From: Candidatus Methanomethylophilaceae archaeon
GTDB lineage: Archaea > Thermoplasmatota > Thermoplasmata > Methanomassiliicoccales > Methanomethylophilaceae
Assembly (NCBI GenBank): GCA_017524805.1
Contig: JAFXUX010000043.1
Location: forward strand, 1 to 64,000
Direction of reading: 5' to 3'
DNA length: 64,000 nucleotides
Made by a program: the position numbers and the translations under genes. Shown in pieces: positions 12,446-62,000 of this stretch (position 1 is the stretch's first letter; every line of letters begins with the position of its first letter). A model generated the notes under the pieces. That model did no database searches. It was not told where the DNA came from and saw only the letters and a program-made list of their open reading frames with translations.

Positions 12446-13123
12446 TCATCTCAGACTTCTGATCTCCGCTTTGACAGCATCGCTAACGCGGTACGATTCC
12501 AAGCACTTCTGCATGGCCTTGGAACGGATCCAATCGTCGACCCCGCATTCCCCGCCCAAATACCCCAAAGTGACGTCCGGGAATTTCGCCATACATTCTG
12601 ACAGACACCAAGCCGCGGCCATCCTGTAGTAATACCCTTCGCAGAGGACCCGATCGATCTCTGATATCACCTTATGAATGTGGCCCTCATCTATGAAATG
12701 GTCCAGCATCATGACGGCCGCGAACCTCATCTGATACTCCATCCCGGTGCTCAGATAAGGGACGATGAAATCCCACACCGCTTCTTTCTCGTTCTCTTTG
12801 GGCTTCCATGTGGAGCAGAACGAATCGCATACAGACCAATTGTCTATGAGGGGAATGAAATCCTGGTACAAGCGAAGCCTCTCATCCAGAGGGACTTTGG
12901 CATAGGCTGTGGCCAGACCTCTTAGCATATAATCCTCGAAGTATTCGGGCTCCCAAGCAGCCAAATACCCTTCGAGGTCGTCCTTCGCTATCCTTTTGGC
13001 CAGCTTTCTGAGCTCCGGAATCCTCGCTCCCAAAAACTTATGGTCGCATGGGGTCAGCTTCGCGCTGAACTCAGCGTTTCCGGGATCGGCCAAAACAAGG
13101 AGCTCTTCTCTGACGTTAATCAT
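12446..13123 (-). CDS. AlkD-like DNA alkylation repair protein
   Basis: A 225-residue all-helical HEAT-like protein of the DNA_alkylation family. Recognisable parts are the N-terminal GARIPELRKLAKRIAKDD segment, DNWSVCDSFCSTW (the aromatic/acidic region that in AlkD/AlkC relatives contacts damaged DNA) and the final helices MAAAWCLSECMAKFPD. Family members excise or bind alkylated bases. Its ATG overlaps the stop of the upstream BspA-type gene (ATGA, 13120-13123), so translation is coupled to the surface-protein operon, an unexpected partner for a repair enzyme. Function in this operon is unknown. Confidence 0.75.
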   Translation of the reverse strand: MINVREELLVLADPGNAEFSAKLTPCDHKFLGARIPELRKLAKRIAKDDLEGYLAAWEPEYFEDYMLRGLATAYAKVPLDERLRLYQDFIPLIDNWSVCDSFCSTWKPKENEKEAVWDFIVPYLSTGMEYQMRFAAVMMLDHFIDEGHIHKVISEIDRVLCEGYYYRMAAAWCLSECMAKFPDVTLGYLGGECGVDDWIRSKAMQKCLESYRVSDAVKAEIRSLR

Positions 13124-16062
13124 GCCTTCATCCTGTACCGGAAGGATACGATCCCTGCTATGATGAAGAAGACCAGCATCCCCAGCGTGAAGTAAGTCAG
13201 AGAATTATCTTTCTTGACATTGTCTTCCTCATCCAGTATCTCTACGTCACTATAGTGCTCTTCCCAAGATTTCCTGTCCTCGGTTTCGACATAATACTTC
13301 ACCGAACTCAGATCCAGCCCGGAGAACACCTCTTGGATGTTTGCGGGCCAAGGGCAGTGAGCCTCTATCTCGGCTATCGAAGAGCACCCCGAGAACGCGC
13401 CTGTCCCCATGGTCTTCATGCTCTCCCCGATGACGACGCATTCCAGCTCGGATGATGCCCTGGAATTGGCGAACGCATCCGAGCCTAAAGACTCCACGCC
13501 GGCAAGATCGACGTAGGTTATGTCTCCGCAGTTGTAGAAGGCGCTGTTCCCTATCGACTTCACGGAAGCCGGGAACGTTATCCCGCCCAAAGAGACGCAA
13601 TTGGCAAAGCAGCTGTCCGGAATGGCGACGATGGAATCTCCGAGCTTCACGCCCACCAGATTGGAGCACCCATAGAAAGCTGCGTCACCCATAGATTTGA
13701 GACTCCCAGGCAGAGAGACCCTTGCAAACGTCTTTGCGGAGCATCCTCTGAACCCGCCTTCGCCTATGTACAGAAGCGAATCAGGCAGCGACGGGGAGGA
13801 AAGCGAGCGGCAGCTCCCGAATGCGCCGTCCCAGATGCGGACCACGGAATCCATGCCGAACACGTTGCGGACGGTAGATCCTCTGAATGCGTCGGCCATG
13901 ATGTCTGTCACGGAAGAGGGTATCTCCACCGTCTCAAGATTGTAATCGCGATAGGACAGCCCGTAAAGCTCATAATCGGACCCTTCGGCGAGCATGAAAG
14001 CGGAATTGCCGATGGCGACGATCGGATACACGTTGCCCATGGCGGAGACGTATCTGGGTATCTGGACGTAAACGCCCGACACATACCTGTGCACTATGGC
14101 CTTCCCATCGATTATGAAATAGTAGAAAGAGAACGGGTCTTTCTTGTAGGCCCCGTCGTAAAGCAGAACCGGAACCTCGTCGGTCTCGGAATCCCAGCCG
14201 GAAGCGCCGGAAAGCCTGTGTACCGTGACCGAAGCCGGGATTTCCCCGAAGAATTCTGGCTTATCCCCGAGGAAATAGACATCCGCCACGGAATTCGACC
14301 AATTGTTCCAGCTGAATTTGGATACCGTCGCGGGGACCGCAATGGCCGGGGCGTTCCTAACATCATTAAGTGCTCCCTGAGCCACGGAGACCAGCGCGTT
14401 CGATCCCAACGACGAAGGCAGGAACAGAATATCGCCCAAGTTGTCGATGGACATGGACGTCAGCTCGGCCGCATATCCGCTTCCGACGGATACCCTGGAG
14501 AACGAGGTCTTCCCCGTGGGAACGATGACCTGCTCCTTGACTGTCCCGGCGTTCTCGCTGTCGGTTCCGACGGCATAGAACTGGATTGTGGGGGATCTGA
14601 AGCTCACTTCCCTGCCATCGTATTCCGATTCCATCTGGGTCAGGACACCTTTCGAGGAGATGTTCCATGCGGCACCGTTCAATCCCTCGGCCAGATCCAC
14701 CGGGAAAGAGAGCTTCGCTTCGGATCCCATCTCCGTCAGATCCGTGATGGAGCGGCCTCCGACCTTCAGAGCGACGCTGTAGAACGCTGAATAATTGATC
14801 CTCTTGAGGGCAGAAGCCATCCTGATGCTGGACGGTCCGTTGCTCACGGACAGGGTTATATCTCCGCCCTCGGCCAGAAGAAGCATATCCGAAGCCTTCA
14901 TGGATACGGACCCTCTGGGAACCGACATCTTCAGAAGCGTGCCGGAACCGACCTTCTCGGCAGCCAGCCTCACCGATTCCTTGTCGATGGACGCTATGAA
15001 ACCGCTCCCGAACTGGGAGATGTCGTACAGAATCGCTTCGCCGTTCTCAACTGGGATCTCTGATGCGGTCGATTGGTTGTGGGAGACGGAGATGGCATTC
15101 CCGATGACGTTCCCGGAAGCGTCTCTCTCTGCCGCATAGATTCCCGGGATCTTCTTGACGTAGACATCGGTATTTCCGATGACCACGTCGTCGACAGACA
15201 TCGGGATGGAAAGGCCGCTGTCCCTGTAGAACAGAGCGATGCCTTCGCCTTCGAAGATGTCCAGGGCGGCAGCGCCTCCAATGGGCGTGTTGTATTCCCT
15301 GACATCCTTGCGGACGACGTCGCTTCCGTGATGGAAAGACACCGTGTATTCGGCTGGGAAAGGCGCATAGTACGCGTATACGAACATGGTATCGCTCACG
15401 TCCGTGAAATGGGCCGGGCTGTTGCCGTTGGGCGTTATGCTCCATGACACGAACTCGTACCTGTATCCTACGGTCGACGGCCGTGACGGGCTCTCAGGCA
15501 AGTCTGTGAGCGTCCCGCCGTACGGGACCGATCTGGTGGCGATCAGCGAGCGGTCATAATCGAAGAATCTGATCTCGCATTCCCTCTCGGCCGCCTCGAA
15601 CACCGCCCTCACGGAGATGTCCGAAGTGACGGAGGACAGATCCTCGCTCCACCCCGCGAATACATACGAGTGCTGGCTGTCCGAAGGCTTGGTGGGTATG
15701 CCGCCGTAAACAGCGGCGTTCCCGTCAAGAACGACCTCCCTATGCAGGAATATCTCCCCGGTCTCGTCATAATAGCTAACGATGTGGGTCTCGACCCTGG
15801 ATATGAAAGTTGCCCTGAACGTCGTGTCCTGGGTTATAGGCTGCGTTACGTCGCCCCAATACATGGTCACCCCTTCGGGCACCTCTATCGCAGGGATCTC
15901 AGACAGATTGATTTGAGCCCCCGCGGCGACCTGCTGCTCCGCTATCACAGTGCCGTCCGGCAGTTCGAAGCGCACCGTGAAATGGTCTTGGGCATCGGCC
16001 TCGCCTGCCAATGGGATGGCGACCAGCGCGAGCGTCAGCAGCAGCGGCAGCATCCAGCGCAT
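13120..16062 (-). CDS. Membrane-anchored BspA-type LRR surface protein
   Basis: A 980-residue protein with a signal peptide (MRWMLPLLLTLALVAIPLAG), two or three N-terminal beta-repeat modules (FELPDGTVIAEQ...; YYDETGEIFLHREVV...FAGWSEDL), a long central region without recognised repeats, and BspA-type LRRs at about residues 660-900 (for example LKSMGDAAFYGCSNL, VKSIGNSAFYNC). A single membrane helix (about 953-972, YFTLGMLVFFIIAGIVSFRY) is followed by a short basic tail. The N-terminal modules closely resemble those of the DUF4430 protein at 21331-23016, tying it to the corrinoid-uptake operon. The start lies 1 nt after the stop of the ATPase gene. Likely a cell-surface binding protein facing outward. 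Confidence 0.8.
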   Translation of the reverse strand: MRWMLPLLLTLALVAIPLAGEADAQDHFTVRFELPDGTVIAEQQVAAGAQINLSEIPAIEVPEGVTMYWGDVTQPITQDTTFRATFISRVETHIVSYYDETGEIFLHREVVLDGNAAVYGGIPTKPSDSQHSYVFAGWSEDLSSVTSDISVRAVFEAAERECEIRFFDYDRSLIATRSVPYGGTLTDLPESPSRPSTVGYRYEFVSWSITPNGNSPAHFTDVSDTMFVYAYYAPFPAEYTVSFHHGSDVVRKDVREYNTPIGGAAALDIFEGEGIALFYRDSGLSIPMSVDDVVIGNTDVYVKKIPGIYAAERDASGNVIGNAISVSHNQSTASEIPVENGEAILYDISQFGSGFIASIDKESVRLAAEKVGSGTLLKMSVPRGSVSMKASDMLLLAEGGDITLSVSNGPSSIRMASALKRINYSAFYSVALKVGGRSITDLTEMGSEAKLSFPVDLAEGLNGAAWNISSKGVLTQMESEYDGREVSFRSPTIQFYAVGTDSENAGTVKEQVIVPTGKTSFSRVSVGSGYAAELTSMSIDNLGDILFLPSSLGSNALVSVAQGALNDVRNAPAIAVPATVSKFSWNNWSNSVADVYFLGDKPEFFGEIPASVTVHRLSGASGWDSETDEVPVLLYDGAYKKDPFSFYYFIIDGKAIVHRYVSGVYVQIPRYVSAMGNVYPIVAIGNSAFMLAEGSDYELYGLSYRDYNLETVEIPSSVTDIMADAFRGSTVRNVFGMDSVVRIWDGAFGSCRSLSSPSLPDSLLYIGEGGFRGCSAKTFARVSLPGSLKSMGDAAFYGCSNLVGVKLGDSIVAIPDSCFANCVSLGGITFPASVKSIGNSAFYNCGDITYVDLAGVESLGSDAFANSRASSELECVVIGESMKTMGTGAFSGCSSIAEIEAHCPWPANIQEVFSGLDLSSVKYYVETEDRKSWEEHYSDVEILDEEDNVKKDNSLTYFTLGMLVFFIIAGIVSFRYRMKA

Positions 16063-16063
16063 T

Positions 16064-16879
16064 TCATTCCCCGCCCCCGAACGCCTCCTCAGGCGATATG
16101 GACCTCTTCGGAAGCACGTATATCTCGCCGTCCCTGTCGACGCCGACGTGGGCTTCCACCTCGTAGACCCTTCTGATGAGGTCTTCGGTGATCACTTCCT
16201 TCGGATTGCCGATGGTGACTATGTTGCCCTTCTTCATTATGATGCATAGGTCGCAGTATCTCGCCATCAGAGAGATGTCATGCTCCGCGACCATCACTGT
16301 CATGTCGCTGCGGGCCATCTTCTGAAGGTATTCCATGACCTCCAGCTTGTATTTCATGTCAAGGTGCGAGGTCGGCTCGTCCACGAGCATCAGCTTCGGA
16401 TTCTGCACGTATGCCTTGGCGATAAGCGTGCGCTGCTTCTCTCCCGATGACAGCAGAGAGACCTGCTTCCTTCTGTAATTCTCGAGGCCGAACGTCTTGA
16501 GGGCTTCCATGACGATCTTCTCGTCGTCCTCGGATTCCCACCAGACTTTGTTCACGAACGGATACCTTCCGAGCATGACCATGTCCATCACCGAGACCCC
16601 GTACATGGATCCCACTTCGGCGGGAACGTTGGCGACTAGCTTGGCGATGTCTGGCGGGCGCATCTTGGACGTGTCGTTGCCGTCCACGACTATCTTTCCC
16701 GTCCACCCGGTATGAAGCTTGGATATGCACTTCATCATGGTGGATTTGCCGCACCCGTTGGGTCCTATCAGACCTACGAGCCTGCCTTTGGGGATGGAGA
16801 GCGAAATCCCATGGAGAGCCTCGAAGTCCCCGAACGAAATTTTGAGGTCCTCTATCTTCAAGACCTGATCATCCGTCAT
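16064..16879 (-). CDS. btuD: ABC transporter ATPase, BtuD/FepC type
   Basis: A 271-residue ATPase with Walker A GPNGCGKST, signature LLSSGEKQR, Walker B LMLVDEPTSHLD and switch histidine in VAEHDISL. This is the standard ATPase of type II importers for corrinoids, haem and siderophores. It overlaps the permease gene by 11 bp and the binding protein is two genes upstream, so the three form one importer. Sequence alone cannot separate B12 from iron-chelate import; the DUF4430 partners favour corrinoids. Confidence 0.85.
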   Translation of the reverse strand: MTDDQVLKIEDLKISFGDFEALHGISLSIPKGRLVGLIGPNGCGKSTMMKCISKLHTGWTGKIVVDGNDTSKMRPPDIAKLVANVPAEVGSMYGVSVMDMVMLGRYPFVNKVWWESEDDEKIVMEALKTFGLENYRRKQVSLLSSGEKQRTLIAKAYVQNPKLMLVDEPTSHLDMKYKLEVMEYLQKMARSDMTVMVAEHDISLMARYCDLCIIMKKGNIVTIGNPKEVITEDLIRRVYEVEAHVGVDRDGEIYVLPKRSISPEEAFGGGE

Positions 16880-18026
16880 ATTCGCGCCCCCTCTTGACCA
16901 GCATGTACGCGAAGACCGGCGTTCCGATCATCGCGGTTATCGCACCGACGGGCAGCTCCAGCGGGGCTATGGCCACCCTGGCTATGATGTCCGAGAACAG
17001 CATCAGGACAGCCCCCAGCACGATGGAGGCGGGCATGATGAGCCTGTGGTCGCTCCCCAGAAGCATCCTGCATGCGTGGGGGATGATGAGTCCGACGAAC
17101 CCTATGACCCCGACGAATGCCACGCATATGGAAGCCAGGATGGAAGCGACGACCATCATCAGAGCCTTGAATCTCCTGACGTTGAGACCCAGAAGCCTGG
17201 CCTGATCCTCTCCCGCCGTGAACACGTTGAATTCCCTGGCCCACAGCATGGCTATCAGCGATATTCCCAGCGCCGGGATCATCACCAGAAACGCGTTCTC
17301 CCAGGTGATGTTTCCGAAGGATCCGTAAAGCCACCACATGACGTTGGTCAGGTTGTCTTTGTTAAGCGACAGGAACACGGTCTGCACGGAGGAGAACGCG
17401 AATCCGACTATCACACCGGACAGGATGTAGTTCGTCGCGGAGCCTCCGGCGCCTTCGGCCACCAGCAGCGTGGCGGCGAAAGCGATCAGACCTCCGACGA
17501 TGGCGGCCACGGGGATGATGTATGCGCTGTACCCGGCGAACAGAGGGATGGAAGCCAGCATCGTGGACGCGGCCACGGCCAGACATCCGGCCCCGGAAGA
17601 CACTCCGGTGATATACGGGTCGACCATCGGGTTCCTGATGAGAGCCTGGAACATGCAGCCCGCTATCGCCAACCCCGCTCCGACGCCCACGGCCGCGACT
17701 ACCCTGGGAAGCCTCGACGAGAACACGTAAAGCTCCTCGGTGGTCAGGTTCTCCCCTCCCTTGGAAATAGCCGATATCAGAGACGAGAATGCGTCGGTTA
17801 TCGGGATTATTCCGCCCGCTGATATGGATATGGAGACCAAGAACATGACCGCGAGGAAGAATATCCCCGCTACGAGGATTATTCTGAAGCGCTTCTTCTT
17901 GGTCTTTATCTCGCTTTTGGTGGCGTTCTCAGGGCCGATGCTATCGTTCATAGCTCTGAAACCTTTGCGAAGCGTATCGATGAACCCCTTCCCGCGGGAT
18001 CCTCCGCTGTCTGCCATGCCTATCAT
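16869..18026 (-). CDS. btuC: ABC transporter permease, BtuC/FecCD type
   Basis: A 385-residue permease with an unusual cytoplasmic N-terminus of about 45 residues, then about ten membrane helices. FecCD landmarks are LPRVVAAVGVGAGLAIAGCMFQALIRNPM, GLIIPHACRMLLGSDHR and the C-terminal LPVGAITAMIGTPVFAYML. It forms the channel of the importer with the neighbouring ATPase. Its ATG overlaps the stop of the preceding PQQ-domain gene (ATGA, 18023-18026). Confidence 0.85.
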   Translation of the reverse strand: MIGMADSGGSRGKGFIDTLRKGFRAMNDSIGPENATKSEIKTKKKRFRIILVAGIFFLAVMFLVSISISAGGIIPITDAFSSLISAISKGGENLTTEELYVFSSRLPRVVAAVGVGAGLAIAGCMFQALIRNPMVDPYITGVSSGAGCLAVAASTMLASIPLFAGYSAYIIPVAAIVGGLIAFAATLLVAEGAGGSATNYILSGVIVGFAFSSVQTVFLSLNKDNLTNVMWWLYGSFGNITWENAFLVMIPALGISLIAMLWAREFNVFTAGEDQARLLGLNVRRFKALMMVVASILASICVAFVGVIGFVGLIIPHACRMLLGSDHRLIMPASIVLGAVLMLFSDIIARVAIAPLELPVGAITAMIGTPVFAYMLVKRGREYDG

Positions 18027-19921
18027 GCCCTCCTATACATCCATGCCGTGACAGCCGCGACGGCGACGGCAATAATGACCAGGGCAGCCCACGACCAGTG
18101 AGCCAGCCCTTGCGATTCGTAGTTTATCCCGGAAGTCTCTTTGCGCTCGGTCCCGGGGACCTCGGACAGCACATATACGGCGCCGTAGTCGTTCCCGACC
18201 AAGACCTTGCCGTCCACAACCGTCGGGGCGCACATGCTGTATGCCGATCCTCCGTACGGGCTCACCTTGGCCTTCCAGACGACATCCCCGTTGTCGGCGT
18301 CGATGCACCATACCCAGCCGCCCATGGAACCTTCCGACCCCGGCGAATAATCCATGCTGTAAATCCTCCCGCCGCAGTACGTTATCCCGCCCACCGAAAG
18401 CGCGTCAGTGGTTCTGGACCAGGCGACGGTGCCGTCGTCCACCCAGAAAGAATAATATCCGTTCTCCAGCGGGATCTCCGCGCCGGTATCGTGGCTGACC
18501 AGAGTCTGGGCGCCGTTCATCGAATATGTTACGTAAGAATACAATCTGCCCCCGAACACCGCCGGCTTGCTGCAGAGGACATCTTTCTCCCATATGACCG
18601 ACCCATCGGCGAGGCTGATCAGCGCTATCCCTCCGCTGGACGATACCATCCCGCCGTCCGCGAAGCATGCTATGGCCCTCTCGCCGGAGCAGATGGATAT
18701 TGCGGTCACTGCCCCGGAATGGTTGCCCTTGGAATCCGCTAGTGGCGCGTCCCATATCTTTTCGCCGGTGCACGCATCGACGCAGATCATATTCCCGGCG
18801 TAATTGCCGGATATGACGGCCTTCTTGCCTTCGACTGTGGCTATGTGGGGCGGATAGAAGTAGAAGCATCCTCTGACCGAGGAATCGGGAACGTGGGTCC
18901 AAAGCTCCCTGAAACCGTCCTCTCTATCGACGGAATAGCAACGCATGATGCCGTCAGAGCCGTTGAAATAGAGGGCACCGCTGTCATAGACGGCGTTCGA
19001 TATGCCCGAATTGTTGTGGAGCCTGTCCTTCACCACGGAAGGGTCGCTTCTGTCTACATCGTATTCGGTGGAGCGGGCTATGTTGCACTTGTCCGGAGAC
19101 GATCCCGACGGATACAGCTCGGCCACGGGATCCCCCGTGAACCTGTCCAGACAATAGATGTGCCAATTGCCTGCGGTCAGGATTATCATATCACCGATGA
19201 TGACGGGAGTCGAAATCTCGATGTTCCCTGAGTCCGAATAGCTCAGAGACCACGCAACCTGTTAGTTGACCGGGTCCAGGCAATACAGCCATGCCAAGCT
19301 GTCCATACCCACGCTTCCATACAGCCCCGCGGCGGTGTGGTATATGAGGCCGTCGGCATAGAGAATGGAGCAGTCGACTGCGCCGGGATAGGCATTGTAC
19401 CACTCAAGAGGCTGCGCTATGGAATCCGGGCCGTACGAATAGCTGACGCCATCGGACGACGAATTGCCTTTGTAACAGATCCAAACGTCTGTGTAATCTG
19501 GGTTGGACACCGGCACTATGCTCTCGGTCGGATAGAATCCCAGCGCCAAAGGGCCTCCGAAATACTGCAGGCTGGCATCCCTCGGCTCCGGCTCCCATGC
19601 CACCCCATCCCAGGAATAGATCCTCCAGACGCATTCCTGGGCTTGTTCTCCCGTGCCGATGGAAATGGACTCTTGCCCGTTTATCGACCTGATGTATTCT
19701 TCTTCTCCTGCGGCCTCAAATTCCAGGGGAACGCCGGCGGATGCCAGCGCAGAAGAGATGACGTCTTTGACGGTCTCCCCGGCAGACAGTCCGTACCAAG
19801 ACAGCTTGCCATTGCCATAGTCTACCAGCAGCCCGTCCGAATCGGCGTCCGAGACATCTGCGAACGCGAGGGGAGCCAATATCGCCAGCAAAAGCGCCGC
19901 AAACGCAATCATCTTTGCCAT
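18023..19921 (-). pseudogene. DUF4430-like plus PQQ-propeller surface protein, interrupted by TAA
   Basis: One continuous frame of 632 codons with a single in-frame TAA at 19262-19264 (codon 220). Before the stop: signal peptide (MAKMIAFAALLLAILAPLAF) and a DUF4430/transcobalamin-C-like domain (about 30-130). Across the stop a PQQ/WD-like propeller continues without a break: WLYCLDPVN, stop, QVAWSLSYSDSG, later WHIYCLDRFTG and VWCIDADNGDVVW. A C-terminal membrane helix (about 612-629) precedes YRRA. A GAA or GGA codon one or two changes away would restore it. A downstream ATG at 19189 could start only a propeller fragment without signal peptide. Because the stop is TAA, pyrrolysine readthrough does not explain it: nonsense mutation or sequencing error. 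Neighbouring overlaps of 13 and 4 bp are intact. Confidence 0.75.
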
Positions 19922-21327
19922 TCCAACAGCCCCTTCGCTTTGACATACGTCAGATACCCGTCCACCGGGTCGTTATAGCTATCGTTGTAATACTTCACGC
20001 CGACTATATCAGTGGGGTCGGCGGCCTCGAAGGATTCCGGATCCATTATCTTGGCCAGAAGCTCCAAGGATTCCGGGATCCTGGCCCCGGGCCTGGAAAG
20101 GAGACTGGCGGCGTCCCCGGAGAACACGTACACTTCCCCGCTCTCGAACGCTGGAGTCTGCTTCCACATATCGTTGAGGCCGGACAGAAGCGCCCTGTAT
20201 TCCCTTGGGGTGCTGATTTCTCCGGCATCGTAGATTATTATGATGATGTCGGGCTGCCTGTCGTAGACGGCCTCTCTGTCCACCATGAACCACGATTGGG
20301 TTCCATCCGCGAATATGTTCTCCGCGCCCAGCGACTCGATCATGTTGGTCACGTATGTGCCTGGGCCTGGCGTATATGGGGAATCGCTGATACCGAGCGA
20401 CAAGAACACCCTCTTGCCGCTGAGATCGGCGATCCTGCAGATGTTGTTGATCACTTCCTTGGCGTCTTTAATGTATGAATTCCCGTTCTCTGGGAATCCC
20501 AGTGCCGAAGCGCATACCCACAGGTTCATCATGAAATCGTTCAGGCTGTTCGCCGGATGCAGGACGACGCAATTGATCCCCGCTTTGCGGAGTTTGTCAG
20601 CCATCGTCACGTGCTCCCCGGTGCCCCCGTCCAGGAACACCAGGTCCGGCGATTCCGCCACGATCAGCTCGAAGTTGGGGTCGGTAAACCCTCCGACCAA
20701 ACGGACCTCTCCGCTGTTCTGGCGCTCCACCAAACGGTTGGGATAATCGCAATACCTATCGGTGGCGATTATGTTGTCCAGGCCCCCCACGGCGCAGACC
20801 GTCTCGGCAACGGACGGAGCCAAAGTCGCCACCCTCAGGTCCTCTCCGAAACGGTTCTTTCCTTCGGTGGCATAGCTGTAATAAGTGAACCCGGTGGCAT
20901 CGACGGCAGGCATCATCGCGCTGCCCTCGCCTGCCCGGGCCCACGAGATTATCTTCTGGCTTGAGACGTCGTATGATGAGGGATCTTCGACCTCTGCCCA
21001 ATGGGTATCCTTGCCGACACCCTCGAGGATGTACATCCCCCAGTCGACGTTGATCAGCTGGGGCACGTTCCCCACGGAATATACCGTGCCGTCCTCGTTG
21101 TACTCTATCCCGTAGCCCTTCTTGGAGCATGCCGATTCGAGCGCCCCCATGCCGGTCAGCCCATCCAGATCCAATTCTACCCATTCCACATTGTAATAGG
21201 CGAAATCAATCATCACGCCCTGCTTCTCGTCGGTCATGTCGACCGAGAAACCGATGAACGGTATCGATGCGAGGATCAGTGCGGCAATCGAGGCGGCGGT
21301 TGCCAGCTTTATAGAGGACGCTCTCAT
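19909..21327 (-). CDS. btuF: DUF4430-like domain fused to BtuF-type corrinoid-binding protein
   Basis: A 472-residue protein: N-terminal signal or membrane anchor (LATAASIAALILASIPFIGF), then a short DUF4430/transcobalamin-C-like domain (about 35-115, with WVELDLDGLTGMGALESAC and DWGMYILEGVGKDTHW), then a class III periplasmic-binding domain (Peripla_BP_2, about 165-450). The latter shows RVATLAPSVAETVCAVGGLD, SPDLVFLDGG, KRVFLSLG and QPDIIIIIYDAG. Such proteins hand corrinoids or iron chelates to BtuC-type permeases. The fusion places two corrinoid-binding folds in one chain. It overlaps the next gene by 13 bp, and the upstream gene ends 3 bp before its start. Confidence 0.8.
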   Translation of the reverse strand: MRASSIKLATAASIAALILASIPFIGFSVDMTDEKQGVMIDFAYYNVEWVELDLDGLTGMGALESACSKKGYGIEYNEDGTVYSVGNVPQLINVDWGMYILEGVGKDTHWAEVEDPSSYDVSSQKIISWARAGEGSAMMPAVDATGFTYYSYATEGKNRFGEDLRVATLAPSVAETVCAVGGLDNIIATDRYCDYPNRLVERQNSGEVRLVGGFTDPNFELIVAESPDLVFLDGGTGEHVTMADKLRKAGINCVVLHPANSLNDFMMNLWVCASALGFPENGNSYIKDAKEVINNICRIADLSGKRVFLSLGISDSPYTPGPGTYVTNMIESLGAENIFADGTQSWFMVDREAVYDRQPDIIIIIYDAGEISTPREYRALLSGLNDMWKQTPAFESGEVYVFSGDAASLLSRPGARIPESLELLAKIMDPESFEAADPTDIVGVKYYNDSYNDPVDGYLTYVKAKGLLEWQR

Positions 21328-21330
21328 GGC

Positions 21331-23016
21331 TCAGCCCTTTCTCTTCATCACGATGACGGCTATTATGGCAATGGCCACTATCGCGGCTATCGCTGCTCCC
21401 ACATAGAGCACCGTGTTGTCGGAGCCGCTCCCGGAATCCTCTCCGGTCGGAGGGATGTCCCTGCTTTCGGTCTCCCCGCATACGGAGCACGTGCGTGTCT
21501 CCGTGCCTTTGTCCTTCGAGGTGGGCTGCTTCGTGACCTTCCATTCGGACCATGAATGCCCGAGCGCGGGAATTGGCTCGGTTTTGACCTCACCGCAGGA
21601 GCAGGCGTACGTCTTCACGCCTTCCGAGACGCATGTCGCGGCCTTCGTTACGACTCCTTCGCCCCAGGAATGCTCATGCGCCAACGGGACCGCTTTGAAC
21701 ACGGGAGTCACGTCCATATCTGAAGTCACATGGGTCAGATCCGCGCTCCATCCTTCGAACTCGTATCTGAACTCGGAGGTCGGCGCTTTGTACGGGGTCG
21801 TCCCCTTGTATGTGGATGAAGAACCGCTGGCGACAGTCTCCGCATACAGGACGGCCGTCTTCGACTCGTCCCAATAGCGGACCATATACGAAGCGGCATC
21901 GATGAAATTGGCCGTGAAAGTCGTGTCGCGGACGATCGGGACGGTGGTGTCTCCCCATCCGGAGAATGTCTTGCCCTTGGGAGCCTCTGGCTCAGGAACG
22001 AGAGCCATATTCGGGGTCTCCCCATACTTCAGAACTTGGGTCGCTACTGCGGTCCCGTCGGGGAGTGCGAACGTCACGACGGGATGGTTGGAGATGCAGA
22101 TGACCTCTTCCTTATCCGGATTCGGGAGGTCCCCGCCCACGTCTATGATGTAATCGGTGCTGTAGGGATCCGGAGTGGATATCAGATAGATGCACATGAC
22201 ATACTTGTACACGGCAGGGTCATAGAATCCCAGAGTCCATTCGTTATAGCTCCAATCCCCTTCGACCCACGTCCACTGGCTCCAATAGTGCCATATGTCG
22301 TCGCTTCCTTCCTCGAGCTCGTCTCCGAGACCGAACATCGTCTTGATCCATCCCTGGATGTTGTTTCCGTTCTTGTCCTGGGTATAATTGAGCTCGACGT
22401 CGAATCCGTTCGACTTGATGGCATCGTCCAGCACTTCGGCCATGGTGGAACCGGTTCCCTTGAGCCAGAACCCTTCTTTTCTGACTTCAGATGTGAAAGC
22501 CTCGAGGACTTCGGGGATGGTCGGTATGAACCCGTTCGCGAACCTGAAGAATATGTATCCTTCGGATTCGGGCTTGAAATCCGGCGCCACATAGTCCTGA
22601 GACCCGTCGATGTTCACGCGCTCGCATATATGCAGGCAATACGAAGTCCCGGAAACCATCCCGTCAGACTTGTCCAAAGCCGTATGCTTCCAGCCCGAGG
22701 TTCCCAATGGAAGCCACTGGTGCACCCTCCAATATTTGTCGCTCTCAGGCTCCAGGCCGTCGACGGATCTCACTGCCGAGCCGTTGCTGACCAGCGCGAT
22801 GATCTTTCCTTGATCTGCCGCGGCGGCTTCTATGGCCTCTTTGACCGTGGAAACCCCTCCGACGACAGACATGTCGTATTCCCCGCTGGCGTTCTCGATG
22901 TATACCCTTATTTCGCTGTATGTGGCCGCAGAACTGTCATCCGACATAGACAATGTCGGCGCAAGGATTGCTGCCAACGCAACGGCAAAGAGAACGAATT
23001 TTCCGTAACGCATCAT
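21331..23016 (-). CDS. Membrane-anchored DUF4430-like surface protein with beta repeats
   Basis: A 561-residue first gene of the operon. Signal peptide (KFVLFAVALAAILAPTLS), a DUF4430/transcobalamin-C-like region at about 30-130 (TVKEAIEAAAADQGKIIALV), a second related segment at about 185-300 (MAEVLDDAIKSNGFDVELNY), two beta-repeat modules (about 325-440) and two copies of a C-x-C/C-x-x-C segment: TCVSEGVKTYACSCGE and TETRTCSVCGET. A C-terminal membrane helix (about 538-557) and KRKG follow. GGAGTG 6 nt before the double ATG supports the start. In Firmicutes, DUF4430 proteins occur with cobalamin uptake genes (family knowledge). A corrinoid-capturing surface role is inferred. Confidence 0.75.
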   Translation of the reverse strand: MMRYGKFVLFAVALAAILAPTLSMSDDSSAATYSEIRVYIENASGEYDMSVVGGVSTVKEAIEAAAADQGKIIALVSNGSAVRSVDGLEPESDKYWRVHQWLPLGTSGWKHTALDKSDGMVSGTSYCLHICERVNIDGSQDYVAPDFKPESEGYIFFRFANGFIPTIPEVLEAFTSEVRKEGFWLKGTGSTMAEVLDDAIKSNGFDVELNYTQDKNGNNIQGWIKTMFGLGDELEEGSDDIWHYWSQWTWVEGDWSYNEWTLGFYDPAVYKYVMCIYLISTPDPYSTDYIIDVGGDLPNPDKEEVICISNHPVVTFALPDGTAVATQVLKYGETPNMALVPEPEAPKGKTFSGWGDTTVPIVRDTTFTANFIDAASYMVRYWDESKTAVLYAETVASGSSSTYKGTTPYKAPTSEFRYEFEGWSADLTHVTSDMDVTPVFKAVPLAHEHSWGEGVVTKAATCVSEGVKTYACSCGEVKTEPIPALGHSWSEWKVTKQPTSKDKGTETRTCSVCGETESRDIPPTGEDSGSGSDNTVLYVGAAIAAIVAIAIIAVIVMKRKG

Positions 23017-23135: not shown

Positions 23136-23369
23136 TTAGAGTTATATATTTTTCTTTGGGATGTGCTTCACGAAAAACATCTGGCCCCCGGATTGACTGG
23201 CTGCTGGCATCGCATAACGACGGAAATAGCGCCGATCGGATGTCTGGCCATCGCATGCACTTCCTGCTGGAAACACCGAAGTCGACCGCCCATCATCGCG
23301 GTTGTCAGCGATGAGGATGATAACCGCAGAATGAACGAGAATAGAAAACGCGATGGATAAGCACGAGAG

Positions 23370-23442
23370 TGGGCCCGCCCAGATTTGAACTGGAGTTACG
23401 TGCACCCCAAGCACGAAGGATACCAAGCTACCCCACGGGCCC
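23370..23442 (-). tRNA. tRNA-Pro (anticodon GGG)
   Basis: 73 nt on the minus strand. Acceptor stem GGGCCCG/CGGGCCC with discriminator A, anticodon stem CGTGC/GCACG around loop TTGGGGT (anticodon GGG, reads CCC/CCU), and T loop TTCAAAT. CCA is not encoded, as usual for many archaea. A TATA element lies 28 nt upstream. Confidence 0.95.
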
Positions 23443-56020: not shown

Positions 56021-59000
56021 TCAAATCTCGGCGAGGACGCCGCCGGATCCGGAGAACGTCTTGCCGGCGAGGTTGCCCGCGGTCTGAGAAATCGCTTTTC
56101 CATCGGCGCCCACGAAGGAAATCCCGTAGAACGCGTTCTTCCCGAGAGCATTGAGACTCTCGGAGAATGATACGCTATTCAGCCCGGAACATCCGGAGAA
56201 GGCGCTGACACCGATGCTGCTGGCGGCGGAAAGGTCTGCCCCAGATAGAGATGAGCATCCCATGAAGGCGTATCCGCCGATGATATCCGCGGAGAGCGTG
56301 ACGCTCTTGAGAGAAGAGCATTTGGCGAAAGCCTTCAGGCCGATTTCCCTCACGGATCCGAGGTCTGCGCTCTTCAGAGCGGAGCAGCCATAGAACGCGC
56401 TGCTGCCTATCGAATCGACGGAATAAGATTCGCCGGCATAGGATATCCCATCGGGAATGGCTATGGCGATCGGGGCGCCGCTGTATCCGGTTACGGACAG
56501 CAAGTTGTCTTCCTCCGAGGTTATGGTGTATTGCAATCCGTCCAGCATGAAGGAGTGCCCGTCAGAAACCAGCTCAAGCTTCCCATCGGACCCTACGAAT
56601 CTCTGCCCGGCCAGATTCTCGGCTGTGGCTTTGATCGAGTTTCCTTTGGCATCTGCGAACGAGAGGCTGCGGAGGGCATCCTTCCCAATGGAAGAGAGGC
56701 TCTCAGAGAACGATGCATATCCGACCTTAGGGCATCCGTAGAACGCCCATCCGCCTATCGAATCGGCAGACAGCGACATCGATGCGAGATTGGCACAGTT
56801 GGCGAAGGCCTTCATCCCTATGGACGAGACGTACGGGAGATCGATCGACACCAAGCTTGAGCATCCGTAGAACGCTTTATCGCCCACGGAGACGACCCTC
56901 AGGGATTTCCCGTTGAATTTAACGGTCTCCGGCAGGGATAACGAAGCGGGGCTGCCCTCATAGCCTTTGACCGAGGCGGTCATGTCCACTGCAGAAAGGA
57001 CAGAGAAAATCAGCCCATCGGCCATGAACTCCGTCCCGTCTCCAAACTCGGAGAGCTTGCCCGCAGATCCGGAGAAGGTCCTGCCGGCAAGGTTGCCCGC
57101 GGTCTGGGCGATCGCTTTTCCGTCGGCGCCCACGAAAGTGATTCCGTAGAACGCATTCTTCCCAAGTGTTGTGAGGTTCTCAGAGAATGATACGCTCTTC
57201 AGCCCGGAACATCCGGAGAAGGCGCTGACGCCGATACTGCTGGCGGCGGAAAGATCTGCCCCGGAGAGGGATGAGCATCCCATGAAGGCGTATCCGCCGA
57301 TGGTCTCCGCAGAAAGCGTGACGCTCTTGAGCGAACTGCATGATGCGAATGCCTTCAATCCTATCTCTTTCGAAGAGCCCAGATCAGCGCTGATCAGGCT
57401 GGAGCATCCGTAAAACGCTTTATCGCCCACGGAAACGACGCTGAGGGCCATTCCGTTGAATTGGACGGCATCCGGCAGGGATATCGAAACAGGGCTGCCT
57501 TCGTAGCCGATAACCGAGGCGGTCATGTCCGCGGCGGAAATGACGGAGAAGATCAGACCGTCAGCCTTGAACTCCATCCCGTCTCCAAACTCGGAGAGCT
57601 TGCCCGCAGATCCGGAGAACGTCTTTCCGGCTAGGTTGCTGGCCGTAGGAGAAAGACTCTTACCGCTCGCGTCTGTGAAGGAAACCCCGTAGAACGCATT
57701 CTTCCCAAGTGTTGTGAGGTTCTCAGAGAATGATACGCTCTTCAGCCCGGAGCATCCGGAGAAGGCGCTGGCGCCGATTGATTTGGCATTGGGAAGACTG
57801 AGCTCCTCCAGGGAAGCGCATCCGAGGAACGCCCATCCGCCGATGCTCTCAGAGGATATGAAAGCCTTCCTCAGGCCCTTGCAATCGGCGAACGCCTTGG
57901 CATCTATGCTCACCCCTTCCTCGACCCAAAGGGATTCTATGGCAGATCCCATGAATGCTTTTGTAGCGATGCCTACCACATCGTAATCGACGCCGTTGTG
58001 AGACACGGTTGCGGGAATGACGACGTCTTTCTGAAGGCCTACTCCATATCCTGTGACTTCAACCGTCTGCCCGCTGGCAATGGTGTATTCCACCCCGCCG
58101 ATGGCGAACGCGGATTCGAGTTCTGTGGATATCGCGGCGAAGGAGACATCTTTCGCAGGCATGACGAATTTGCCGTTGCTCACGGCAACATCTGAAGTGG
58201 CCCAATCGCTCACGGAGTATCCGGCTTTCTGGTACGCAGGGCGCACGCTTACCGTCTCTCCGGGCAGATGGTTCTCAGTGAATACGGCGGCTCCATCGAG
58301 AGCATAGGTTACTGCGTACTCTTTGGACGCCCAAATCGCCACATACGCGATGTTCCCGGTCACGGTTGCTTTGACGGAAGGGGACCATCCGGCGAATTCG
58401 TATCCAGCTTCGCATGAGGGGACACCCACGAACGCTGGAGTCGCTTTGCCATACTCAACAGAATATGTCTGCGCCTGGAAAGTTCCGTGCTCTCCCGGCA
58501 GATATCTGACGCTGTATGTGCGCTTGATCGCATCGAACGTCGCGGCGTATGTGGCATCTTCGGTTGCGACGAGCACATCGGGAGTCCAGCCTGCGAATCT
58601 GTAGGAATATTCCGCGGTCGCTGCCCTTGTCGGAGAGGCACCGGAATAAGTCGGGACGCTGCCATAGGCCACGGTATCGGTTTCGAGGACAGAACCGTCC
58701 CAGTTCTTCCAGGTGATTGTGAAGGAAGTCTGCTGAGTGTACGCGTTGAATACCACATTCTTGGCAGGCATGACGAACTTTCCGCTGGATACGGTGGCAT
58801 CGGATGTGGTCCAGGGGGTCACATTGTAACCATCTTTCACGTATGGGGCGCGGACGCTCACGGTCTCGCCGATCTGGTGGGTCTCGGAGGCGATCCTCGA
58901 TCCGTCGACGCGATACGTGACAGTGTAGCTGTTAGCCGACCACTGCGCGGTATAGGCGGCGTTGCCTGTGACGATCTGGCCTACGGACGGGCTCCATCCT

Positions 59001-62000
59001 GCGAACGAGTAACCTTCCTCTCCCGCGGCTGTCCCTTCGAAAGCCGGAGTTTCCACGCCATATCTGACGGTGTAAGTCTGGCTCTCGAAAGTTCCGTGCT
59101 CTCCGGGCAGATATGTTATGGAATACATCACGTACGATGTGGTGTATTTCGCGGTGTACGTGGCATCCGCAGTCGCGGCAGATACCTGGGGGTCCCATCC
59201 GGCGAACGTGTAGCTGTACACGGAATTCGGAGCTCTGGCCGGCGCCGATCCGGGGTAAGACGGCATCTCGCCGAAAGCGACCGTAGTCGTAGCCAGGACC
59301 GCTCCGTTCCAGTTCTTCCAGGTTACCGTGAAGGAGGATTGCTGCGCATAAGCGTTGAATCTCACGCTCTTGGCCGGCATGACGAACATGCCGTTTGATA
59401 CTGAGACATCCGAAGAAGACCAAGCACTGACTTCGTACCCGTCTTTCACATACGGTGCGCGGACGCTCACGGTCTCGCCGACCCTGTGGGACTCGGAAGC
59501 CACTATGGTCCCATCCACAAGATAAGAAACGGAGTAGGACATCGGAGTCCAGAGGGCCACATACTCCGCGTTGCCGGTCACTATCTGGCCGACCGAAGGG
59601 GACCAACCGGCGAACGCGTATCCTGTCTCTCCCGTAGCGGTGCCTTCGAATGACGGAATTTCCATGCCGTATCTGCTGGTGTAAGTCTGGCTCTCGAAAG
59701 TTCCGTGCTCTCCGGGCAGATATGTTATGGAATACATCACGTACGATGCAGAGAATTTCGCAGTGTACGTGGCATCCGCCGCCGCAGAGGTTATCTCGGG
59801 ATCCCACCCAGCAAACATGTACGCATAGATTGAGTTGGACGCCCGGGTAGGCTCGGCTCCGGAATATGATGGCGTCTCGCCGGAAGCGACCGTAGTCGTG
59901 GCAAGAACCGCTCCGTTCCAGTTCTTCCAGGTTATAGTGAAAGAGGATTGCTGCGCATATGCGTTGAATCTCACGCTCTTGGCCGGCATGACGAACATGC
60001 CGTTGGACGCTGAGACATCCGACGTCGACCAGAAGCTGACTTCGTACCCATCTTTCACATATTGAGCGCGGACGCTCACGGTCTCGCCGAAGCGATGGGT
60101 CTCCGATGACACCAGAGATCCGTCGACATAATACGACACGGCGTAGTTGTTCGGCGTCCAGAGGGCGGTGTATGTGGCGTTGCCCGTGACAGTCTGCGAT
60201 ACCGAAGGCGACCATCCGGCAAAGCTGTATCCGGCCTCTCCCGCCGGAGTGCCGGAGAACGCCGGAGTCGCATTCCCATACTGGGCGGAATAGGTCTGCG
60301 AGGTGAACGTCCCGTGCTCTCCGGGCAGGTATTTGATGGTGTATCCCACGGTCGATGTGGTGAAGACCGCGGTGTATGTGGCGTTGCTGGATGCGACGGT
60401 TACGGTTGGGTTCCATCCCGAGAACGTGTAGCTCACGGAAGAGGATGATGCTCTCGTCGGAGTGGGTCCGCTGTATGAGGGCAAAACACCTGAAGCTACA
60501 GTATCCGTCGCGAGGGTCGTTCCGTCCCAGTTCTTCCAGGTTATGGTGTAATTCTGCGTTTTCGCCTTGACGGTGACGACGCAAGTCGCCGTGTAGCCTC
60601 CATCGTTCGTCTTCGCGGTTATCGTGGTTGTGCCGGCGGAAACCGCGGTCACGATGCCGTTGCTGACGGTGGCGATGGACGTATCAGCGCTGCTCCAGAT
60701 CACGCTGCGGTCGGAAGCGTTCTGGGGAAGGACAGTCGCATTCAAAGTCAGGGAGCTTCCCTGATCCATCGTCGCCGATGTCTTGTCAAGGGAGATCGAA
60801 GTGACATGGGTCTGCTGCCCGCCTACCGTTACTACGCAGGACGCGCTCAGGCTTCCGCATTTGACGGTTATCGTCGCGGTCCCGGCGGAAACCGCGGCCA
60901 CTATGCCGTTCTCGACGGTGGCCACGGATTTGTTGCTGCTGGTCCATTCCTCTGTCCTGGTCCCGCTGTTGGACGGGGTGAATTCGGTGTCGAGCGCGAT
61001 GGTCTCGCCGGGCTGCATTGACACGGACGTCCTGTCAAGAGACAGGCTCTGGGCCGGAGATCCATGCCTTATGCAGAACATCCTTCCGCTGTCGTTCACA
61101 TAGACGATGCTTCCGTCGCTGAGGAAGTGGGGCTGCTGCCCGGTGTACTGCTTGATGGTGACTTCCTTCAGCTCAGTGACCGTGAGCATGTTGGTGCTCA
61201 GATTGTGTTCGACGACGAATATGGATGACGAATTGTTGTACGGGACGATGTACGCGCAGGCTTTCCCGGCGTGCCCCGTGGATACGACCATGCTTCCGTG
61301 CCCATAGAAGTTGGTGTTGTCGACGGATGCCACCGGCTCCATGCTTTCCATTTCGTATACAGTGAATGTGCCGTCCGAGAACACATAACCGTATCCGCCG
61401 TTGACTATCAGCGCGGAGCTGAGGCCGTTGTATTCCCCGTTGGACCTGACCTTGAGGGTGGCGTGGCTGAATCTCCCGTCATCGCTGATCTTCACGGAGG
61501 CAACGTTGAAGATCTTCTCTTTGGCGGAGCCTCCCATCAGCTCGCCTTTGTAGGTCGTGAGAGTCGCGTATCCTTCGTTGAGGTCGATGTATCCCTTGTT
61601 GATGTAATTGCCTTTGAATTCTGGGATGTAGATCTTATCGATCATAGAGCCGTCGGAGATTTTGCTCGTCTGAAGGAAAACGGATCCGTCGCCGTCGAAT
61701 CCGGCGGTCATGAGGAATCCTTCGCCGAACAGCAGCTGGGTCCCGCCCTCGTAGGCGGTTATGAAAGATCCGGTGTTCTTCGTCCAGACAGGGCCCTGGA
61801 CGTTGTATGGGTCTGACGGATTCTTGTCGGCGGCTTCGAAACAGCAGGTCCCTGCGGAAGTCTGCACAAAGAAGTACCCGTCATGATAGAACGTCTTGGC
61901 GATGAGGCTGGCCGACAGGGCAAACACCTGGTTCAGATCCGTGTCGAAAACCTTTCCGGAATAGGAGTCCAGGACCAGGCCGTTTCCTACGGTCACATAC

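Follow-up and report, generated by a model that had tools for sequence, protein, structure and literature searches.

A conserved BtuFCD-type import operon with transcobalamin-like domains in a rumen methanogen, and its probable corrinoid cargo

What does an ABC importer take up when its genes share one operon with surface proteins that carry a common domain, and what part could that domain play? We addressed this question for a Candidatus Methanomethylophilaceae archaeon, a methane-producing archaeon of the rumen (assembly GCA_017524805.1; 1.95 Mb, here G000). The window, the whole stretch of DNA analysed, comprises 64,000 nt (JAFXUX010000043.1, positions 1-64,000, forward strand). Seven co-directional genes occupy positions 12446-23016 of its minus strand and, according to the list of open reading frames, overlap or are spaced by 1-3 nt, just as the first-pass annotation had described. 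Pfam domains were assigned for six of the seven genes, and matches to Peripla_BP_2, FecCD, ABC_tran, LRR_5 and DNA_alkylation bear out its naming of BtuF, BtuC, BtuD, LRR and AlkD genes. The occurrence of the first three domains in one operon supports the reading of an importer of the BtuFCD type.

The first gene (21331-23016; all operon coordinates are on the minus strand) encodes a surface protein of 561 aa, for which alignment, structure prediction, fold comparison and hydropathy indicate a signal peptide, two copies of the domain that we call D (D1, 22606-22920; D2, 22171-22569), List-Bact/InlB-like repeats, Cys-rich repeats and a C-terminal membrane helix. It had been described as a stand-alone domain with beta repeats; the repeats hold, and the finer picture is one of two D domains, List-Bact/InlB-type repeats and a Cys-rich C-terminus. 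The second gene (19909-21327) encodes D-BtuF (472 aa), which has a membrane anchor at its N-terminus, then a D domain (20860-21222) and a BtuF-like substrate-binding protein (Peripla_BP_2, 9.7e-27). The third, D-PQQ (18023-19921), encodes a signal peptide, a D domain, a beta-propeller (PQQ_2, 4.4e-16) and a C-terminal membrane helix, and contains an in-frame TAA stop (19262-19264) that interrupts it. These are followed by genes for a FecCD/BtuC-like permease (16869-18026; FecCD, 9.8e-85), a BtuD-like ABC ATPase (16064-16879; ABC_tran), a BspA-type LRR surface protein with List-Bact-like repeats (13120-16062; LRR_5, 5e-62) and an AlkD-like DNA alkylation repair protein (12446-13123; DNA_alkylation, 1e-14). 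AlkD is also the final gene in the nearest relatives (loci L103, L106, L108 and L109). By hydropathy, all three D-proteins have a hydrophobic N-terminus and are secreted or surface-anchored, a trait of the transcobalamin-like SLBB clade, and the surface protein and D-PQQ also have a C-terminal helix.

A tRNA-Pro (ggg) gene lies just upstream of the operon (23369-23442, minus strand; ARAGORN and a short Rfam scan). No credible riboswitch was identified at the operon leader with Rfam; the gathering scan of the whole window was empty and overlooked this tRNA-Pro too, and is hence weak alone. Six leaders align poorly, one near-identical copy excepted, and a conserved leader RNA was not seen among them. 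Elsewhere in the window (58514-60550, minus strand), List-Bact-type repeats in a 3156-residue open frame resemble those of the surface protein.

The three D-proteins had been proposed to carry domains like DUF4430. No window protein matches the Pfam model (PF14478) at E<=0.1, and relatives scanned singly gave 0/41, 0/34 and 1/15 matches (the one at E 0.0098), so that membership by the Pfam cut-off fails. Profile-profile comparison gives a different result. We aligned profiles from the D column alignments A1, A2 and A3 with 11 genuine DUF4430 regions of the same order using hhalign, and obtained probabilities of 96.4% for D_BtuF, 88.3% for D_PQQ, 86.9% for SD1 and 35.0% for SD2, the last being weak alone. 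The D domains also match each other (D_BtuF-D_PQQ 97.9%, D_PQQ-SD1 97.9%, SD1-SD2 96.7%). For each of the four profiles, 0/60 column shuffles scored at or above the real alignment; reversed profiles reached at most 0.35%, four other domains of the operon at most 1.01%, and 18 fragments of these domains stayed at or below 1.3%. Judged by their profiles, the D domains are thus remote relatives of DUF4430, homologous to the transcobalamin-like SLBB clade. A PDB sequence search returned no match for the D_BtuF profile and three chance-level matches for D_PQQ. A DUF4430 protein encoded in a different family of the order adjoins a propeller protein (L150, L151) whose N-terminus is matched by the D_BtuF profile and by a local DUF4430 profile, not by the Pfam model. 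A run of several propeller proteins, also outside the family of the window (G043:C30; L148, L149), includes genuine DUF4430-propeller and DUF4430-LRR proteins.

Predicted structures point the same way. AlphaFold2 models of the tandem-D protein (pLDDT 93.1, pTM 0.89) and of D-BtuF (pLDDT 90.5, pTM 0.85) both have the order S1-S2-H-hairpin-S3-S4-S5, a five-stranded beta-grasp with a hairpin inserted after the helix (D1, strands and helix within model residues 4-104; D-BtuF, E37-41 E47-51 H59-70 E74-76 E82-85 E94-102 E109-113 E126-133). Such a hairpin marks the transcobalamin-like clade and touches B12 in transcobalamin, according to the available text of Burroughs 2007 (PMC1796856). Two conserved glycines characterise the clade, one after strand 2 and one before strand 3; G22, G155 and G197 are nearly invariant in alignment A6, and the glycines are not invariant in D_BtuF. 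In a VIA-align search with the tandem-D model, ranks 1-15 (Z 8.9-11.1) are taken by haptocorrin (Z 11.1), intrinsic factor (10.4), transcobalamin (8.9-10.2) and the bacterial structure 3u7z (9.0), and the best other fold, SAMP1, comes at rank 16 (Z 7.5). D1 gave the haptocorrin match (rmsd 2.0, 92 aligned) and D2 that to intrinsic factor (rmsd 2.5, 102 aligned). The top six Foldseek matches are likewise transcobalamin or 3u7z (prob 1.00), with E of 1.6e-3 to 3.7e-3 and none <=0.001. The fold search with whole D-BtuF is uninformative on D because the BtuF part fills the match list. The comparison with the transcobalamin C domain suggested by the first-pass annotation therefore favours its view, the 15 best matches being B12 carriers and 3u7z; the lack of a DUF4430 match, which it had named as a refutation of its domain assignment on three proteins, holds for the Pfam HMMs and is overturned by profile comparison and predicted structure.

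A shared fold does not imply that D binds a ligand. The D domains could be beta-grasp modules for protein-protein contact or surface adhesion that hold a complex together, with ligand bound by BtuF only; beta-grasp domains often mediate protein contacts, as described in the accessible part of PMC1949818, all three D-proteins are encoded in one operon, and the surface partners contain repeats of the LRR and List-Bact kinds. However, D ranks with the beta domains of B12 carriers, well above other beta-grasp folds, and has the hairpin that contacts B12 in transcobalamin (PMC1796856, as far as its text was available). We regard a purely structural role as rather unlikely, and favour a role for D in capturing the cargo.

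The arrangement is not peculiar to the window. D-BtuF-like matches were found in 73 of 80 related genomes, although many are plain BtuF. Scanning of named genomes confirmed 99 loci, of which we kept 80, nearly all from gut, rumen or termite Methanomassiliicoccales; of the 80, 75 encode D-BtuF and 69 also encode D-PQQ, fused to the permease in 36 cases and split from it in 33. The pairing of D-BtuF with D-PQQ goes beyond chance in these 80 loci, which were found by homology. We divided the loci by a score cut into type I (the kind in the window; 32 loci) and type II (43 loci, mostly with a D-propeller-permease protein of ~980 aa); L187, where a single reading frame encodes two D-BtuF domains, was placed in type II manually. 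Immediately upstream of D-BtuF, 12/32 type I and 24/43 type II loci have a tandem-D gene, and the tandem-D part is fused to the LRR gene in seven further type I loci. The tandem-D protein, D-BtuF, D-propeller, FecCD permease and ATPase form a conserved module across Methanomassiliicoccales.

Hydropathy places the propeller outside the cell: a signal peptide, D, the propeller and a helix are followed by the end of the chain in type I or by a linker to the permease in type II, and in all 12 fused proteins checked this additional membrane helix separates the propeller from the permease. The single N-terminal helix of D-BtuF is its tether. Several type II loci (L206, L209, L213, L220, L226 and L227, and also L120, L135 and L136) encode two permeases, one fused to the D-propeller and one free, which suggests a heterodimer with a single propeller. 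In L139 (genome G038), a 1045-aa protein has propeller repeats at its N-terminus and a D-BtuF-like region at its C-terminus, and adjoins a permease, an ATPase and the cob operon; here the parts are fused in another way.

The cargo is best approached through type II. These loci often run on into genes for a cobC-like aminotransferase, cbiB, cbiZ, cobS and a nucleotidyltransferase, which we take to be cobY. The cobC-cbiB-cbiZ-cobS genes lie beside 12/43 type II and 0/32 type I loci (Fisher p 0.0008, the loci not being independent), and plain BtuFCD systems of other families (L244, L246) occur in the same cob context. In a permease tree (94 rows, rooted at the midpoint, with some long branches), type I (15 rows, 100/99) is sister to type II (43 rows, 98/84), the two being joined at 100/99. 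Next out is the cob-linked L139, followed by a group that includes the plain BtuC of L244 and L246, which are cob-linked too. Both types are thus nested among cob-linked BtuC. Ten of the 23 other FecCD permeases of G000 were included, and all ten fall outside the type I/II grouping.

FecCD import by itself says little about cargo, because G000 has 24 FecCD permeases. These importers are greatly expanded in G000 and in two further genomes (41 matches in G001 and 37 in G011), the count being 1-5 in 13 of 16 genomes from other families of the order. NCBIfam equivalog cut-offs for BtuF, BtuC and BtuD were not reached by the window proteins (BtuF, 72.8 of 234 bits; BtuC, 208.3 of 334 bits). The two D-BtuF proteins of G000 score highest of all Peripla_BP_2 matches in the genome, and among the 50 best fold matches listed for D-BtuF, E. 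coli BtuF has the lowest rmsd (2.2-2.4 A) and the highest identity (26-28%); on overall Z it is equalled by YiuA and iron/haem proteins. Y192, W346 and E352 are conserved in 61/61 D-BtuF sequences and E220 in 60/61. By alignment, we take Y192, W346 and Glu220/352 to be the counterparts of Tyr50, Trp196 and the docking glutamates of E. coli BtuF. Position 214, which falls on Trp66 of E. coli BtuF (alignment via the W66Y and W66F crystal entries), is always aromatic (47 Tyr, 14 Phe; Phe214 in the window). The conserved positions are mostly kept in cob-linked plain BtuF and mostly not in unrelated binding proteins.

Corrinoid is well supported as the substrate of type II, and for type I we infer the same cargo. 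The proposed corrinoid link gains from the cob-linked sister type and the permease tree, and loses from the 0/32 type I loci beside cob genes. The same machine could have been re-purposed in type I, from cob-linked type II, for haem, a siderophore, another tetrapyrrole or a cobalt chelate. The difference in cob linkage (0/32 vs 12/43), the coexistence of both types in several genomes, the wealth of FecCD permeases in G000 and the BtuF-like fold scores of haem and siderophore proteins are all consistent with this, as is a zinc-ribbon-rich protein encoded after or near the importer in 12/32 named type I loci (e.g., L118:14520-15773, L171, L178, L179) and 0/43 type II loci. However, the invariant Tyr and Trp and the docking Glu positions are common to both types, which are sister groups in the permease tree, and G000, where D-BtuF provides the two best Peripla_BP_2 matches, has no type II copy. 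Tyrosine is the usual ligand of haem proteins at the position equivalent to 214; here this potential haem-ligating residue is not kept, being Phe in 14/61 sequences including that of the window. Phe214, where BtuF has Trp66, leans against haem, which the first-pass annotation had named as an alternative that would undo its reading. A change of cargo seems distinctly improbable, and we retain corrinoid as the probable cargo of type I as well.

The fusion of D to a PQQ propeller in the window is well founded in its domains (PQQ_2 by Pfam, D by hhalign), but the gene is not intact: it is a single frame broken by the internal TAA, at codon 220. At this site none of 33 aligned relatives has a stop codon (mostly Lys, Arg or Gly), although that sample was drawn from open frames and broken copies would escape it. 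All 24 other members of the best 25 D-PQQ matches listed have open frames of at least 547 aa. Members of the Methanomassiliicoccales use TAG for pyrrolysine; read-through of D-PQQ by this route is ruled out, as its stop codon is TAA. Broken D-propeller copies occur elsewhere, by TAG in L206 and by frame breaks in L168 and L197. The TAG of L206 (positions 1867-1869), from a horse-faeces MAG, lies inside the D domain of a D-propeller-BtuC gene and may be read through, given the use of this codon in the order.

The window copy might be decaying, with D-PQQ disabled by a nonsense mutation and the operon being lost, while a second type I copy does the work; the in-frame TAA and an intact type I copy on another contig of the genome (G000:C29) fit such a loss. 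However, relative to the nearest relative (G026), the codon differences after the stop are mostly silent (129 silent vs 35 replacing over 412 codons; before the stop, 75 vs 49 over 219 codons), so that the stop is either recent or an error. The permease and ATPase are intact, and the metagenome contig could carry a base or assembly error. We consider decay of the operon doubtful.

Why G000 would import corrinoids is a separate matter. The genome encodes CbiC, CbiD and a CobC-CbiB-CbiZ-CobS-CobY cluster, and appears able to make corrinoids. Uptake would therefore serve salvage or remodelling, not a strict need, and the suggestion that these cells scavenge B12 out of dependence is not supported. 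That the cells lack an outer membrane is also doubtful for this order: Methanomassiliicoccus luminyensis most likely has one, according to the available text of a review, on the basis of poor images (PMC4243693).

We conclude that the operon probably encodes a membrane-anchored system for the capture and import of corrinoids (cobamides or cobinamide). The direct basis is its gene order and domain content, the distant relationship and modelled fold of the D domains, the fusions, the cob linkage of type II and the position in the tree. From these we infer the corrinoid cargo of type I, ligand binding by D, the order of hand-over and a lid function of D. The BtuF-, BtuC- and BtuD-like proteins would form the ABC importer, and the three membrane-anchored proteins would present beta-grasp domains akin to the beta domain at the C-terminus of the B12 carriers transcobalamin, haptocorrin and intrinsic factor. 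Corrinoid would be caught outside the cell by the surface D domains, perhaps together with the propeller in a BtuG-like role, and passed to D-BtuF, tethered by its N-terminal helix, where D may close over the BtuF site in the manner of the transcobalamin beta domain. Loaded D-BtuF would then dock on the propeller-capped BtuC, with BtuD driving uptake by ATP. More tentatively, one re-used transcobalamin beta domain could have given rise to an archaeal relay from surface to cytoplasm, serving as capture protein, as BtuF lid and on a BtuC-fused propeller, with receptor and permease in one polypeptide and the corrinoid held between D and BtuF as in the animal carriers; this is conceivable, but the less likely side of the question.

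The arrangement itself is real, conserved and mostly unnamed, a form of BtuFCD import that incorporates transcobalamin-like domains. One domain here joins the B12 carriers of animals and prokaryotic ABC import, and the fusion of a propeller to an ABC permease is a compact case of a surface receptor feeding an importer. It also offers a testable answer to a puzzle of 2007, the purpose of transcobalamin-like proteins in euryarchaea, which can often make B12 (PMC1796856, available text). The order matters for methane from ruminants.

Parts of the system resemble known ones. Neither D-BtuF nor a propeller-BtuC fusion is named in any title or abstract found in our literature search, most subscription papers lying outside its reach. 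A 2024 genome study reports unusually many BtuC in the order, an absence of pqqE, and, in the rumen isolate LGM-RCC1, btuCDF beside adhesin-like proteins, for which specialised capture of exogenous B12 was suggested (PMC10804542). A reading of D-PQQ as a PQQ enzyme was set aside. The order and the adjacency of importer genes to surface proteins are the same as here, but the available text of that account names no transcobalamin-like domain, propeller or fusion (PMC10804542).

BtuG of gut Bacteroides is likewise a surface beta-propeller in a B12 uptake locus; it binds B12 with femtomolar affinity and has the outer-membrane BtuB as its partner, according to the part of the source at hand (PMC6143338). 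The D-PQQ propeller has 51 sequence matches at E<=0.01, none of them BtuG2 (3DSM); homology is not seen by sequence, and BtuG is at most an analogue in role.

The transcobalamin-like SLBB clade has in common with the system the hairpin-insert fold (predicted here), secretion, several paralogues per operon and a propeller fusion. Burroughs 2007 proposed B12 scavenging as the role of the secreted members and reported a fusion to a propeller in Clostridium as well as members in euryarchaea; for archaea, another metabolite was put forward as a possible ligand (PMC1796856, available text). In that text BtuF is absent and CbiO/CbiQ transporters are linked instead (PMC1796856), whereas in the present loci D is joined to BtuF and, through the propeller, to BtuC, and the D domains of the window are too remote for the PF14478 model. 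The core is shared with BtuFCD of E. coli and others, in the substrate-binding protein, FecCD permease, ATPase and docking Glu positions; unlike in those systems, the substrate-binding protein is anchored in the membrane by its N-terminus and includes a D domain, and the permease lies beside a D-propeller or is fused to it.
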